From: an uncultured Bacteroidota bacterium
Lineage (GTDB): Bacteria > Bacteroidota > Bacteroidia > Chitinophagales > Saprospiraceae
Assembly: GCA_937870795.1 (NCBI GenBank)
Contig: CALMWS010000001.1
Span: forward strand, 1 to 32,105
Direction of reading: 5' to 3'
Length of the DNA stretch: 32,105 bases
Part shown: positions 5,709 to 30,124 of the stretch, piece after piece
How the letters are laid out: the number at the start of each line of letters is the position of its first letter
Position numbering within the stretch: position 1 is the stretch's first letter
Notes under the pieces: generated by a model
The model's database searches: none
What the model saw: the letters and a program-made list of their open reading frames with translations, nothing else
What the model was told of the DNA's origin: nothing
Position numbers and translations under genes: made by a program

Positions 5709-8132
5709 TTATTTTTTGATTTTAACACTTATCACCTCTACCTTTCTTTCCTTGGATGCTTTTAAACTGTAAATAGATCCTTTTTCATCGTGAATGTTGT
5801 CATTCACATCAACAGGAGAAAGTTCTTCACCATAGGATATTTCAGTGATAATTAATTGTTCGTTGAGCAAATAAGGAGCGAGGGCGCCATTTTTGTATTC
5901 CATCATATTGTTGCGCACACTGTTGATCCTTCTTTGCCCCAATACCAGGTTGTAACGATCATCAAACCTCGGGGATGCATAACCTCTGATGGTCATGTCT
6001 ATTTTTTGACCTTCACTCAGGGCTTTGATCAATTCGTCCATAAATAAGCCAAATCTGTCGTAGCCACCACGAACATCTCCTTCAAAAAATGCTTCCATAT
6101 TGTCGATGGATTCCTGCTTTTCGGGACCCTTTATGCCTTTGCCGTATCGCTCCATAAATTCAGGCTTCCTGAGCATATAGGCTTTAAGCAAATCACCAAA
6201 CACTTTTTTGGTTGCAGTGGATTTACTATCGGGGTCAGGCTCGTCATTATCAAAATAAAGAGCCAATGGCAACAAACGATTGATGTCGGCTCTCGGTAAG
6301 TACAACTTGCGGGTAATTTTACCCGATCCACCGCGGGTATCGATTGTTTCGGTTACACCGCTGTAGCCGATTTTTGTGGCGGTAATCTTGTAGGTTTTAT
6401 TGGGTTCAATTTGAAAAGTAAAATCATTGCCCATTTCATTCATTTGAACCAGGATTGGGTTGGCAGGATCGGTAAGATCTTCCACCGTAATTTTTACACC
6501 CGAAAGTGGTTTTTTGTCGTTGGCATCGAATGTAAAGAGATCAAGGGATAATTTGTCTGTATCCAGGTACAGTTTTTTAATAAGGTTTTCTGATTTCCTG
6601 ATGGTATGTGTACTAAAGGAAATGGTATCTGCTTTGTACCCCGGCTTTGAGGCAATGATGAGGTAGGTCACCCCTTTGGTCAAGGCAAATGGATGCTCGT
6701 TGCTGTCTTCAGGGGTTAGCGAAGCCAGTTGTTTCTTTTTGACCTGATCAATAAGAACTACCGTTGCGCCAAACAGAGATTCACCTGTGTTTTTATCAAA
6801 GGTGAGTGCGTTGAGGTTGATTTGAAGATTTTTGATGTTTGCCTTGTAAATATCGTAACAACAAGATTTCAACAATTCGTCAACATAGGTAGCTCCTTCT
6901 CTATTGGAAGAAAATAAAGCTGTCTCACCTGCATCATCCGGCCTGTAATAAATGTCGTGGTATGTGCTGTTGTAGGGCATAGGGAGAATGGTGGCTTCAA
7001 TAAATTTGCCATCAACCCACTGACTACCAAAAATGTCATAGCCACCAAAGCCGGTTTTTCCCTCTGTACTAAAATACAGAGTTCTGCTATCTTGGTGAAA
7101 ATAGGGAGTTACATCATTTTCGGCTGTGTTGATCTCATTGAGATTGATAGGATTTGAAAAACCTAGTCTTTTGTCGTAGACTGCCATCCAGACATCCAAT
7201 TTACCCTCTCCACCAGGCCTGTCTGAAACAAAATAAAGAACTTCATTACCTGTAATAGGATCTTTTGCAAAGCTCGGCTGCGTAGTTGTATATCCTGGCA
7301 TGTTGATTGGGCCGCCCACCAGCTGTTCTTCTGAATAGGTACCATCTGCATTGACCTTTGAGGAATACAAATCACACCTCAATTCCGGGTCGGATTTGAA
7401 TTCACAAACCGTGTAATAAATCTTTGTTTTGTCTGTATTAAAAACAGCATTGGCAACTGAAATATCCCTTTTATTAAAATCTGCGGTAAGTTCATTACTT
7501 CCACTCTTACCGTTTTTAAGTACTTTAGCTATTTGTCGGGCCGGTTTCTGGAGGGCCTTGTTTTCCGTAAACCTTTGAGATGAAAAATAGATGGTAGTGT
7601 CCCATTGAATGGCACCGAAATCCGAATACTCTGAGTTGATAGAAGAACCCATTCTTTCTATGGAAACATTTTCATCCGGCTCTTTGCTATTGGTCGCTGC
7701 CCATGTACAGGAGGCCTTTTCCTTTTTGGCTTTTTTGGTGAGGTATTCTTTTTCATGGCTGTATTGACTCAGATACAGATCATAATATTCAATGGCTTTA
7801 TCAAATTTGCCCAATCTTTGGTTCATTTCACCTGCATAAAATAAGCAGGTTGAGTCGGGCACATTTTGCATAGAATCTATCAACAAGGCATACTTTTCTG
7901 CTGCCACGGCGTAAGAGTCAAATTTTCTGGCGGCTTCTGCTGATTTAAATATGATGTCGACATCTTTTTCATCAAAGGCCAATACTTCATTGTAATAAAC
8001 CAATGCAGCATAATAATTGCCCTGGACGTAGGCGGTTTCAGCAGCTTCCAGAAATTGTTTTTTGGATTGCCCACTACTCCACCCTGGTACAAGCATCAGA
8101 AGGATAACCGATAATCTTAAATATTTATACAT
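5709..8132 (-). CDS. PorE-like envelope protein: TPR, PD40 propeller, carboxypeptidase-regulatory-like and OmpA domains
   Basis: An 807-residue protein with a signal peptide (about 22 residues, ending SSGQ). Domain order: TPR-like helices at about 23-150; a PD40/WD40-like propeller at about 165-430 (YFSSQRF, LYFVSDRPGGEGKLDVW, LYFSTEGKTGFGGYDIF); two carboxypeptidase-regulatory-like beta domains (GESLFGATVVLID, KPLSGVKITVEDL); and a C-terminal OmpA-like domain opened by LYFDNDEPDP and containing GYASPRFDDRYNL. This is the architecture of PorE, a periplasmic T9SS component thought to tie the trans-envelope complex to peptidoglycan. Being next to a cargo gene it is more likely a paralogue dedicated to that cargo than the core PorE. 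The frame is open from 8168, but ATG 8132 gives a clean signal peptide and avoids overlap with the upstream gene. Confidence 0.88.
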   Translation of the reverse strand: MYKYLRLSVILLMLVPGWSSGQSKKQFLEAAETAYVQGNYYAALVYYNEVLAFDEKDVDIIFKSAEAARKFDSYAVAAEKYALLIDSMQNVPDSTCLFYAGEMNQRLGKFDKAIEYYDLYLSQYSHEKEYLTKKAKKEKASCTWAATNSKEPDENVSIERMGSSINSEYSDFGAIQWDTTIYFSSQRFTENKALQKPARQIAKVLKNGKSGSNELTADFNKRDISVANAVFNTDKTKIYYTVCEFKSDPELRCDLYSSKVNADGTYSEEQLVGGPINMPGYTTTQPSFAKDPITGNEVLYFVSDRPGGEGKLDVWMAVYDKRLGFSNPINLNEINTAENDVTPYFHQDSRTLYFSTEGKTGFGGYDIFGSQWVDGKFIEATILPMPYNSTYHDIYYRPDDAGETALFSSNREGATYVDELLKSCCYDIYKANIKNLQINLNALTFDKNTGESLFGATVVLIDQVKKKQLASLTPEDSNEHPFALTKGVTYLIIASKPGYKADTISFSTHTIRKSENLIKKLYLDTDKLSLDLFTFDANDKKPLSGVKITVEDLTDPANPILVQMNEMGNDFTFQIEPNKTYKITATKIGYSGVTETIDTRGGSGKITRKLYLPRADINRLLPLALYFDNDEPDPDSKSTATKKVFGDLLKAYMLRKPEFMERYGKGIKGPEKQESIDNMEAFFEGDVRGGYDRFGLFMDELIKALSEGQKIDMTIRGYASPRFDDRYNLVLGQRRINSVRNNMMEYKNGALAPYLLNEQLIITEISYGEELSPVDVNDNIHDEKGSIYSLKASKERKVEVISVKIKK

Positions 8133-9869: not shown

Positions 9870-11030
9870 ATGAATCGATTTGAAACCATAGCCATCCGCA
9901 TGCAATTAGAAAGGACAGCAGAAAAAGAGCACGCTGTTCCCATTTTTCCAACTTCAAGTTTCATTTTTTCCGACGCCGACGAGATGAGAATGGCTTTTAC
10001 AGAAGAAATTGAGGCCAATATTTACAGCAGGTACAGCAATCCTTCTGTTCGTGAGTTTGAAAATAAAATTGCCGCACTGGAAAAGGCTGAAGCGGCCATT
10101 GCTACTGCCTCTGGCATGTCGGCTGTATTTGCTTCCTTTGCCTGTTTTTTATCGCAAGGCGACCACGTTTTGCTATCGCAGGCAGTATTTGGCAGTACCA
10201 TAAAACTGTTTGAGAATTTTTTTGCCAAATGGGGCATTTCTTACGATTTAATCAATAGCACAAACCCAGTGAATTGGCAATCTGCATTCAAATCAAATAC
10301 TAGATTGGTTTACCTCGAGACCCCTTCCAACCCGGCCCTCGATATTTACGATCTTAAAGCATTTGCGGACCTGAGCCACGAGCACAATGCCCTTTTGATA
10401 GTGGACAATTGTTTTGCTACGCCCTACTTGCAAAACCCAATAAGCCTGGGTGCAGATTTGGTCATCCACTCAGCCACAAAATTCATTGATGGTCAAGGTA
10501 GAGTGCTGGGTGGCGTGATCGCAGGAAGTAAGGAACACATATCGCAGATCATACCTTTTATGCGGAATGCGGGTCCTACACTATCCCCTTTTAATGCCTG
10601 GATTTTGTCGAAAAGTCTGGAAACATTGGCGGTCAGGATGGATCGTCATTGTGAAAACGCACTCAAACTGGCAACTTTTCTGGAACAAAGAGAGGAGGTT
10701 TTGTATGTAAGGTATCCCTTTTTGAACTCGCATCCTGGCTGTGAAGTTGCCCGAAGTCAAATGAAGGCAGGGGGTGGCATCGTAGCGTTTGAATTGAAGG
10801 GTGGTATAGAAGCGGGTAAAAAAATGATCAATGGTGTGATGATGTTATCCATTTCACCCAATTTGGGTGATACGCGCTCCATCATTACACATCCCGCATC
10901 TTCTACGCACAGCAAATTGTCGCGACAGCAAAGAGAAGATGTGGGCATAACCGATGGACTGATCAGGATTTCTGTGGGTTTGGAACACATAGATGACATC
11001 ATCTCAGACATCCGCCAGGCCATCGGTTAA
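9870..11030 (+). CDS. metZ: O-succinylhomoserine sulfhydrylase (trans-sulfuration PLP enzyme)
   Basis: A 386-residue fold-type I PLP enzyme of the Cys/Met metabolism family. It most likely makes homocysteine from O-succinyl- or O-acetyl-homoserine and sulfide, in methionine synthesis. Visible: Tyr52 and Arg54 in YSRYSNPS (cofactor phosphate contact from the neighbouring subunit), SGMSA at 81-85, Asp179 in VDNCFATP (pairs with the pyridine nitrogen), and the Schiff-base Lys204 in HSATKF. The sequence IDGQGRVLGG after the lysine is characteristic of MetZ-type enzymes. Cystathionine gamma-synthase or an acetylhomoserine enzyme remain possible, as specificity in this family is hard to read from sequence. 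It is the second gene of an operon with the OsmC-like gene; the next gene converges on it after 10 bp. Confidence 0.88.
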   Translation: MNRFETIAIRMQLERTAEKEHAVPIFPTSSFIFSDADEMRMAFTEEIEANIYSRYSNPSVREFENKIAALEKAEAAIATASGMSAVFASFACFLSQGDHVLLSQAVFGSTIKLFENFFAKWGISYDLINSTNPVNWQSAFKSNTRLVYLETPSNPALDIYDLKAFADLSHEHNALLIVDNCFATPYLQNPISLGADLVIHSATKFIDGQGRVLGGVIAGSKEHISQIIPFMRNAGPTLSPFNAWILSKSLETLAVRMDRHCENALKLATFLEQREEVLYVRYPFLNSHPGCEVARSQMKAGGGIVAFELKGGIEAGKKMINGVMMLSISPNLGDTRSIITHPASSTHSKLSRQQREDVGITDGLIRISVGLEHIDDIISDIRQAIG

Positions 11031-27860: not shown

Positions 27861-27889
27861 AATAAAAAAGCCCGGCTCTCACCGGGCTT
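27861..27889 (-). terminator. Intrinsic terminator downstream of dnaK
   Basis: AAGCCCGG / CCGGGCTT (27868-27875 and 27882-27889) with a six-base loop, followed on the minus strand by TTTTTTATTT. It lies 195 bases past the dnaK stop codon, with the fold-back element in between. Confidence 0.85.
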
Positions 27890-27905
27890 CCCACAATCCT
27901 TATTT

Positions 27906-28067
27906 GTAACTCTTCAGGTGGCTGCTTTCAGATTAAAAAATTTGGCAATTTTGAGTCAGATGAGGCTCATTTGAGGAATCATAGCAGCGCTATGGTGACG
28001 AGAATAGCCGAGATATCACACAAAATTGACTTTTTTTAATCGAAATTGAGTACACCTGAAGAGTTAC
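27906..28067. repeat. 162-bp fold-back element with perfect 15-bp terminal inverted repeats
   Basis: GTAACTCTTCAGGTG at 27906-27920 is exactly repeated in inverse orientation at 28053-28067. Inside, GATTAAAAAA/TTTTTTAATC and CAATTTTG/CAAAATTG continue the pairing, so the two arms of about 45 bases are largely complementary; the centre holds small hairpins. The outer flanks are CCTTATTT (27898-27905) and CCTTCTTT (28068-28075), 7 of 8 identical, resembling an aged target-site duplication. No open frame is inside. It is either a MITE-like non-autonomous element or the core of a structured RNA; the flanking duplication favours the first. Confidence 0.7.
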
Positions 28068-28084
28068 CCTTCTTTAAAATAATC

Positions 28085-29989
28085 CTATTTTTTGTCCTGA
28101 ACTTCTTCAAATTCTACATCGGTAATGTCATCAGCACCACTGGGCTGCCCTTGCTGTGCACCACCCTGAGCCTGACCTCCCGCTGCCTGCTGGGCATTGT
28201 AGATGTCCTGACTTGCTGCCATAAAGGCATCATTCAGGGTCTTGGTGGTGCTCTGTATTGCCTCTACATCCTGATTTTTGTGCGCTTCCTTCAATTGCGC
28301 CAGTGCTGTATCTATGGCTGACCGCTTATCAGCAGGTATCTTATCTCCAAACTCTGAAAGTTGCTTTTCTGTCTGGAAAATCAAGCTGTCAGCCTGATTA
28401 ATGGCCTCGGCTTTTTCTCTCGCTGCTTTATCTGAATCGGCATTGGCAGCTGCTTCTGCTTTCATTTTTTCGATTTCTTCTTTTGAAAGCCCTGTGGATG
28501 CCTCTATCCTGATGTTTTGCTGCTTGCCTGTGCCTTTGTCCATGGCGGATACACTCAGTATGCCGTTGGCGTCTATGTCAAATGATACTTCAATCTGTGG
28601 TACTCCCCTCGGTGCCGGTGGAATGCCATCCAGGATAAACCTGCCTATTGCCCGGTTGTCCCTGGCCATTGGCCGCTCTCCCTGCAAGATGTGGATCTCC
28701 ACACTGGGCTGGTTATCAGCCGCTGTACTATAGGTTTTTGATTTTTTGGTAGGAATGGTTGAATTGGACTCTATTACCACATCATACATACCTCCCATCA
28801 CTTCAATACCCATTGACAAAGGCGTCACATCGAGCAACAACACATCTTTTACATCACCACTCAATACCCCGCCCTGGATGGCAGCGCCTATGGCTACCAC
28901 TTCATCGGGATTTACCGACTTGTTGGGCTTCTTTCCAAAAAACGCTTCAACAGCTTCCTGGATCTTGGGTATCCGGGTACTTCCTCCTACAAGGATTACT
29001 TCATCGATGTCTCCTTTGTCAAGCCCGGCATCTCTCAGGGCATCGGCACAGGGTTTTAATGTTCTTTGTACCAGGGAGTCGGCCAATTGCTCAAATTTTG
29101 CCCTGCTCAATTTGGTTACAAGGTGTTTGGGCACGCCATCTACTGCGGTAACATATGGCAGGTTGATTTCGGTCTCTGCTGAGGATGAAAGCTCAATTTT
29201 AGCCTTTTCAGCCGCTTCTTTCAGCCTTTGCAGGGCCATGGGGTCTTTTCTAAGGTCAATATTCTCCTGTGACTTGAAACTTTCTGCCAGCCAGTCGATG
29301 ATCACCTGGTCAAAGTCATCTCCCCCCAGGTGGGTATCGCCATTGGTGGATTTTACCTCAAATACGCCATCACCCAATTCCAGGATGGAAATATCGAAGG
29401 TACCGCCACCCAGGTCATAAACCGCAATGGTAGAATCGTGGTGTTTTTTATCCAGGCCATAAGCCAATGCAGCTGCCGTAGGCTCGTTGATGATCCTTTG
29501 TACTTTTAAACCTGCTATTTCCCCGGCTTCTTTGGTTGCCTGTCTTTGTGAATCGTTGAAGTAAGCTGGAACGGTAATTACAGCTTCTGTTACGGTTTGC
29601 CCCAGAAAGTCTTCTGCTGTTTTTTTCATTTTTTGCAGAATCATGGCTGAAATTTCCTGTGGCGTGTACTGCCTGCCATCGATGTCTACCCGTGGGGTAT
29701 CATTGTCTCCCTTATCTACTTTATATGCCACTCTAGAGGCTTCGGTGCCTACCTCAGAAAAACGGTTGCCCATAAATCTTTTGATGGATGCCACGGTCCT
29801 CTTTGGGTTGGTGATCGCCTGACGTTTGGCGGGATCTCCTACTTTGCGTTCGCCGTTATCCAAAAATGCTACCACAGATGGGGTGGTTCTTCTTCCCTCT
29901 TCATTGGGTATTACTACCGGGTCATTGCCCTCCATCACGGCTACGCATGAGTTGGTGGTTCCCAGGTCAATTCCTATAATTTTTCCCAT
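28085..29989 (-). CDS. dnaK: Molecular chaperone DnaK (Hsp70)
   Basis: A 634-residue cytoplasmic Hsp70 that binds exposed hydrophobic peptides in an ATP-driven cycle with DnaJ and GrpE. The ATPase domain starts [21 protein letters not shown] and contains [16 protein letters not shown] and [13 protein letters not shown]; the linker region shows [15 protein letters not shown]; the substrate domain and helical lid follow, ending in a Gly/Gln-rich stretch and [15 protein letters not shown]. Length is normal. ATG 29989 is the true start; the frame happens to stay open to 30040. It stands alone: no dnaJ or grpE neighbours, divergent from an M28 peptidase gene. No TAnnTTTG box is seen upstream, but TGTCA/TGACA repeats are, perhaps reflecting heat-shock control. 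Confidence 0.98.
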
Positions 29990-30124
29990 TGTATTTGTTT
30001 TAGTTTTTTGTTTCTTTTCTCTTATCAATTGATGTGCCATGCCGTTTTTATGCTTTTTATTGTCTTTTTTACTGAAATCATGTCAGTAAAATGCCGATTC
30101 AACCTGTAAAAATTGCAGTTATAG

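Follow-up and report, generated by a model that had tools for sequence, protein, structure and literature searches.

A MITE inserted behind dnaK in a Saprospiraceae genome and the homology of its interior to elements with other ends

Insertion site and anatomy of the element

In the window, by which we mean the entire 32,105-nt stretch of DNA analysed here, the end of the dnaK gene and its intrinsic terminator lie 192 bases apart, with a fold-back sequence between them. The locus raises the question of how this sequence came to be there, what moved it, and what its interior consists of. The original prediction described a 162-bp element with perfect 15-bp ends, no coding capacity and flanks alike at 7 of 8 positions, and this anatomy is confirmed in the sequence (Table 1). 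The element contains no open reading frame of at least 80 aa; the last 22 bp on its right side are shared with a mechanical frame at 28046-28321 on the + strand, which is antisense to dnaK. The further claim that the element had split the terminator from dnaK also holds, as the distance would fall to ~22 bases if the element and one flank were removed, and a similar terminator in the sister species G002 lies ~30 bases past the dnaK stop codon. Folded together with both flanks as RNA of the dnaK strand, the element has an energy of -53.6 kcal/mol (z = -6.2, equalled by 0 of 200 shuffles). No Rfam family reached threshold in the window, all other Rfam matches falling below their gathering scores.

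Table 1. Features at the dnaK insertion site, with positions in the window
Feature	Position	Strand	Remarks
dnaK intrinsic terminator	27865..27892	-	12-pair stem, 6 G-C, T tail; element now between terminator and gene
Left copy of 8-bp target duplication, CCTTATTT	27898..27905	.	7/8 identical to right copy
Whole MITE	27906..28067	.	162 bp, non-coding
Left terminal inverted repeat, GTAACTCTTCAGGTG	27906..27920	+	IS66/ISBst12-type end
Structured core hairpin	27953..28021	.	stem covaries across superfamily; 61 distinct cores, tip-pattern selected
Conserved GAGGCTC, core left side	27962..27968	+
Hairpin tip, ATAGCAGCGCTAT	27981..27993	.	GCAGCGC invariant in 16 A1 copies
Conserved AGCCGA, core right side	28006..28011	+	AGCC pairs with GGCT of GAGGCTC
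Right terminal inverted repeat, CACCTGAAGAGTTAC	28053..28067	-	perfect complement of left, 15 bp
Right copy of 8-bp target duplication, CCTTCTTT	28068..28075	.
dnaK (Hsp70), host gene upstream of insertion	28085..30040	-	PF00012, E 1.9e-262

Evidence for mobility

Three copies of the MITE are present in the window genome (G000), on three contigs. A search of 60 genomes with the element matched seven of them, namely its own genome, all five other genomes of the genus and G018, with the G003 match spanning 44 positions only and the G018 match covering the core only. The copies are dispersed at non-homologous sites, and the 3' end of dnaK carries no element in four of four readable same-genus genomes (G002, G003, G004 and G005), the corresponding region of G001 being cut by a contig end and hence outside this count. 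In G002 the site is orthologous and empty: the downstream gene start behind dnaK is the same as that of the window, and once the element and one 8-mer are taken out of the window sequence, the joined flanks align to G002 with a score of 185, versus 109 when the element is retained. The idea of a non-autonomous transposon behind dnaK is thus borne out by dispersed copies and by an empty site, and the genomes do not show the pattern that would speak for the opposite, a single conserved copy at dnaK with none elsewhere and no empty sites.

The proposed 8-bp target duplication appears as a signal of the whole family. Candidate end pairs of the window's type (family A, below) numbered 68, of which some are chance pairs arising from loosely thresholded matching, and their flanks are identical in 15 pairs at 8 bp, in two at 7 bp and in one at 9 bp. 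Mean flank identity at 8 bp is 0.67 versus 0.37 in permutations, with 0 of 1000 permutations equal; at 6, 7, 9 and 10 bp the result is also 0/1000, with a smaller excess (0.41-0.52 versus 0.35-0.37). Many of the listed pairs match at fewer than six of eight flank bases, and these are partly chance pairs from the loose thresholds. Clear 8-bp duplications are seen at L132/6810 (agtaagtt), L203 (aaataaac), L214 (aaaaagtc), L253, L201 and L019. The window feature is a MITE that inserted behind dnaK, duplicating 8 bp of its target. That it might instead be an immobile, conserved regulatory or terminator structure of dnaK, as its strong fold and its position between stop codon and terminator could suggest, is barely credible when it stands behind dnaK in none of the four readable congeners, the G002 site is empty and the copies elsewhere carry target duplications.

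Two further arrangements were seen among the copies. One copy in G002 (C86, L020) and one in G001 (C142, L008) apparently represent a single insertion, located behind a terminator that the two species share, so that at least one copy seems older than their split. On G002 contig C115 (L132), two MITE copies in the same orientation, at 6810-6996 and 10284-10469, flank ~3.3 kb with frames for a helicase-like protein (718 aa) and for a small helix-turn-helix protein, and a HipA/HipB-like pair lies just outside this bracket; all these names come from reading the translations.

Candidate mobilizing transposase

The end pattern GTAACTATTCAGSTR was scanned for in 298 genomes of the family, 28 of which matched; the reversed pattern gave at most one match per strand in any genome among those listed, versus 14 true matches in G317. 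When two mismatches were allowed, control matches outnumbered real ones in each of the six genomes, and this loose scan served only to find the G004 copies. The transposase with matching ends for which the original prediction proposed a search was met with in part: IS66 sequences with such ends occur in relatives (G064 and G317), and none was found in the window's own assembly. In G064 (contig C84, L217), the ends GTAACTATTCAGGTA and GTAACCATTCAGGTC, the second at 13/15, stand 1477 bp apart and enclose three broken frames matching zf-IS66 and DDE_Tnp_IS66. The end of this relic is identical at 15/15 positions to the ends of the G317 MITEs and at 13/15 to the window end, and these 14-15 bp ends are the only sequence that it has in common with the window element; a target duplication of its own is not present. 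In G317 (contig C388, L238), a C-terminal stretch of IS66 is followed by TACCTGAGTAGTTAC, the right end of the G317 MITEs, at a distance of ~95 bp from the domain match. Only one end of that IS66 is visible, and an interrupted MITE copy adjoins the fragment. Another IS66, in G030, has ends GTAAGCG.

A search for IS66 genes found none in G000, G001, G002, G003 and G005, that is, in the window genome and four of its five congeners; the G000 assembly consists of 460 contigs, so an IS66 may have been lost from it. An IS66 gene does occur in G004 (contig C125), and it was rejected as the partner, such ends being absent from the available DNA and the gene reaching the contig end.

According to the accessible part of its description, ISDge4 of the ISBst12 group is a transposing element with ends GTGACTACTCAGCA and GTAACTGCTCAGCA and an 8-bp direct repeat, and a single transposase gene is the mark of this group within IS66 (PMC12898284). 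Because of the matching ends, the 8-bp duplications and the ISDge4 precedent, the mobilizer of the window MITE is likely to be an IS66 of the single-gene (ISBst12) kind, of which the relics with these ends are none of them intact; such a transposase would move the MITE in trans by recognizing GTAACTATTCAGGT-type ends. Taken this way, the window MITE is best read as an IS66 parasite whose effect at dnaK is probably small, with little beyond a longer 3' end of the dnaK message, to which it would add a 162-nt foldable stretch ahead of the old terminator. A REP/REPIN palindrome moved by a Y1 tyrosine transposase (RAYT) would likewise be palindromic, dispersed and hairpin-forming, and REP-like palindromes do lie inside some copies. 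Single-strand transposition of the Y1 kind makes no target duplications, however, and with defined 15-bp ends, 8-bp duplications and ends common to IS66 copies this origin is very improbable.

Several other candidates were set aside. ISL3 (PF01610) gave three partial matches in one of seven genomes, at contig ends, and was dropped once the IS66 ends had been found. A 1409-bp interval in G317 (contig C569) was considered as an autonomous element; its sole frame of at least 80 aa encodes a 153-aa helix-turn-helix protein whose Pfam matches are all below cut-offs, and the interval is read as a MITE copy broken up by other sequence. Three half-length matches in G004 (L145, L146 and L147) were rejected as ends of an autonomous element, no transposase being recognized, by reading, among the listed frames. 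Four elements of G317 and G148 (L198, L202, L211 and L212) have GTAACTATTCAGGTA ends and flanks alike at 7 or 8 of 8 positions around interiors of quite another kind, so these ends serve more than one sort of interior.

The same interior between other ends

The core pattern GAGGCTC-N(9-15)-ATAGCAGCGCTAT gave 16 matches in 84,980 genomes. Fifteen are in records named Saprospiraceae, Lewinella, Phaeodactylibacter, Bacteroidota or Bacteroidetes; the remaining one is partial, in a record named Actinobacteria (L173), and extends over part of the core only (E 2.5e-5). In viral contigs the core pattern had no match, and the bare 15-mer matched 110 stretches, which were read as chance since the 80 listed have one match each.

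Four families can be told apart by their ends. Family A, with ends GTAACTATTCAG, occurs in the window genus, G317 and G199; family B (GAAGCTGTTTGAATT) in DT_111 and Lewinella; family C (GAGCATGTTTGGAGG) in Phaeodactylibacter, with 132 exact end sites in one genome; and family D (GAAGTTGTTTAATGT) in H3_Bin. The flanks of family C are 3 bp of the form TNA, identical in 19 of 27 pairs (a level reached in 0 of 1000 permutations), and show no duplication signal at 8 bp (148/1000 permutations). Those of family B are also TNA, with identical 3-bp flanks in four of the seven rows read as true B copies; the flanks of family D are 3 bp long but are AGT and AAA, and hence not TNA. A 3-bp TNA duplication is the reported signature of the IS1031 group of IS5, as given in the available portion of PMC12016507. 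Family B is carried by G325, where GAAGGTGTTTAAAAA ends with TAA/TAA flanks enclose an IS5 transposase (NF033580); both ends and flanks were located by eye, and the ends agree with those of family B at 11 of 15 positions. A PF13340 search of five genomes with IS5-type elements matched in one only, and it found no partner for families C and D. The ends of families B to D would fit transposases of the IS5/IS1031 kind.

A profile of the interior had no match in the L217 relic, the IS5 locus L312 or the IS66 loci L139, L158, L235-L237, L239-L241 and L141, and in L238 it matched only the MITE beside the IS66 fragment. The interior of the window MITE is not a cut-down IS66.

Many contigs of a Phaeodactylibacter assembly (G321; e.g., C14, C17, C27 and C109) begin ~110-125 bases into a family C element, from which it appears that the repeat breaks short-read assemblies. 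On a 7.58-Mb contig of G272, a 182-bp element (L232, 1626-1807) resembles family D in its ends and has AGT/AGT as flanks and CATAGCAGCGCTATGG as tip; its match to the interior profile is weak (E 0.004 with filters off), and it may represent a more remote branch from a different genus.

Homology of the interiors and change of ends

The elements of the different families are alike in layout. Among the copies compared, length is 162 bp in six of seven A elements (the other being 160 bp) and in four of four C elements, 160-161 bp in B (n=3) and longer in the two D elements, and the hairpin apex lies at position 73-76 in every A, B and C copy. With the ends and the core removed, 11 of 14 cross-type pairs of interiors are still more similar than shuffled sequences, at no more than 3 of 2000 shuffles (z 3.4 to 5.1). 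A G317 copy of family A gives z values of 5.1, 4.6 and 3.7 against three C copies and 4.4 against a B copy, with 0/2000 shuffles each, and the window copy compared in the same way with two C copies gives 1 and 2 of 2000. Three cross-type pairs are not significant: the window A copy against B (141/2000), the window A copy against D (941/2000), and C against B (430/2000).

The interior profile gave 94 distinct hits, from loci that had been fetched by their ends or core and are therefore not a random sample. Both ends could be typed in 73 of these (A 32, C 29, B 7, D 5), one end being untyped or cut in the other 21, and none of the 73 has mixed ends. An unrooted tree of 127 columns was built from the interiors of 68 of the 73 typed copies, five (two A, three D) being omitted as incomplete. 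On this tree a single branch separates each end type from all the others, with support of 92/86 for A and 91/91 for C and with the B and D branches starred; the split between A and non-A is not starred and is present in 88% of bootstrap trees. The end type changes three times in all, versus 28.8 times in shuffles, and the unrooted 68-copy tree requires no more than one switch between ends of the IS66 and IS5 types.

The core is conserved much better than the subterminal parts. This is what would be expected if the interior were common through repeated transfer of cores between co-resident MITEs by gene conversion, or through convergence on a site for a host protein, and the three pairs that are not significant outside the core point the same way. 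Against such transfer or convergence, the copies of A, B and C that were compared have their apex at the same position and are nearly equal in length, 11 of the 14 cross-type pairs remain significant with ends and core excluded, and the interiors cluster by end type on the tree, so that we regard it as unlikely. Descent with a change of ends is the preferred reading: the interior would be an older hairpin module that is also flanked, elsewhere in Saprospiraceae, by ends of another type that make 3-bp duplications (TNA in two of these three families), and from the interior homology and the tree we infer that this module has switched transposase family at least once. The route by which ends are exchanged may be imagined from the form of the element; because it is an inverted repeat, hairpin repair could copy an end newly acquired at one terminus onto the opposite one. 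As a whole, the reading of a MITE that inserted behind dnaK with an 8-bp duplication, moved by an IS66 of the ISBst12 group and built on an older module that changed transposase family at least once, is held with good confidence.

The core hairpin

A structure of 26 pairs was applied to 61 distinct cores, which are the 65 available minus L173, L175 and two reverse-oriented duplicates. In these, 81.6% of cells are paired versus 66.7% in shuffles (0/500), and versus at most 47.4% when the structure is slid along the alignment, a control in which it is favoured by having been hand-written from the sequences. Changes on both sides occur in 20 of the 26 pairs, with 230 such cells versus 87.5 in shuffles. 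The stem formed by GGCT and AGCC varies in step, being found as GGCT/AGCC, AGCT/AGCT, CGCT/AGCG and GCCT/AGGC. The constancy of the tip is partly by construction, as the 61 cores were picked by a pattern requiring TAG-N5-CT; GCAGCGC of the tip is also invariant in the 16 A1 copies, which come from a whole-element search free of this choice. RNAalifold found almost no consensus in the 61 cores.

Palindromes undergo correction towards perfection, and this mutational process, acting by template switching on imperfect palindromes, could in part account for the covariation of the stem in place of selection for the fold. Some Phaeodactylibacter cores are indeed near-perfect inverted repeats, and the near absence of an RNAalifold consensus on the same alignment agrees with this explanation, but a bulged base and a mismatched GA/GA persist in many copies beside the covarying stems. 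As a full account of the covariation, we put template-switch correction at somewhat under even odds. The more ambitious proposal is that selection maintains the hairpin core as an independent module with the tip ATAGC-NNN-GCTAT, in the form of a folded RNA or of a hairpin in single-strand DNA, and that it has been carried across Saprospiraceae between the ends of unrelated transposases, exchanging IS66-type for IS5-type ends while its stem covaried and its tip was kept; this we offer tentatively, as a possibility about which we are doubtful.

Short versions of ~55-79 bp, with both ends and no core, were seen in g99 genomes (L199, L200, L204, L205 and L209) and in G004 (L147), the flanks of the last being alike, by reading, at 8/8 positions. 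Either the core is dispensable for movement in such copies, or it was deleted after insertion. REP-like palindromes are inserted within some MITE copies beside the core hairpin: 24 bp like TGCTTCGGCAAGCTCAGCACCTCG are found in six of the 16 A1 copies (G000_C370, G002_C115a, G002_C115b, G002_C86, G001_C142 and G001_C111), and others lie inside L175, L176, L308 and L311.

Comparison with known systems

MITEs are usually viewed as the remains of one insertion sequence and as tied to that sequence. The interior of the window MITE seems to have outlived its own ends, being held between IS66-type ends with 8-bp duplications in one group of Saprospiraceae and between IS5-type ends with 3-bp duplications in others; if this is true, small non-autonomous elements can switch transposase and so escape the death of the parent IS. 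Titles and abstract openings of open-licence articles in PubMed Central yielded no IS66-ended MITE of Saprospiraceae and no MITE interior common to transposase families. The new part, which the original prediction did not include, is the interior homologous to that of other-ended Saprospiraceae elements.

The closest counterpart of the ends is ISDge4 (IS66, ISBst12 group), whose end GTAACTGCTCAGCA agrees at 10 of the first 14 bases of GTAACTATTCAGGTA and at 12 of those of GTAACTGTTCAGCTA. The 8-bp direct repeats of the window family are as in the available account of ISDge4 (PMC12898284), and the L217 relic is like it in having one transposase gene; unlike ISDge4, the window element is without a transposase. 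Families B to D resemble the IS5/IS1031 group, as represented by ISLrh in the accessible text of PMC12016507, in their GA-type ends around TGTTT and, for B and C, in the 3-bp TNA duplication; the window element, by contrast, has ends of the IS66 type and duplicates 8 bp.

Among MITEs, MITECca01 of Cardinium, also a member of Bacteroidota, is a multicopy element of 240 bp that, in the part of PMC9769881 available, is compared with the inverted ends of a resident IS, ISCca4, and linked to it. The window MITE is similarly small and multicopy, and differs from the element described there in that the interior of its family has no match to the mobilizing IS and is found with two end types. In QMITE1 of Coxiella burnetii the ends are variable and the core is conserved (PMC5896051, as far as its available text goes); that variation is among insertions of one genome, and the same portion of the article ties it neither to two transposase families nor to a covarying hairpin. 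TIMEs, which are non-autonomous elements derived from Tn3, have cores that are replaced between related ends, as far as the available text of PMC4133298 describes them. Set against that description, the two cases are opposite in direction: in TIMEs the ends stay and the core changes, whereas in the Saprospiraceae MITEs the core stays and the ends change.
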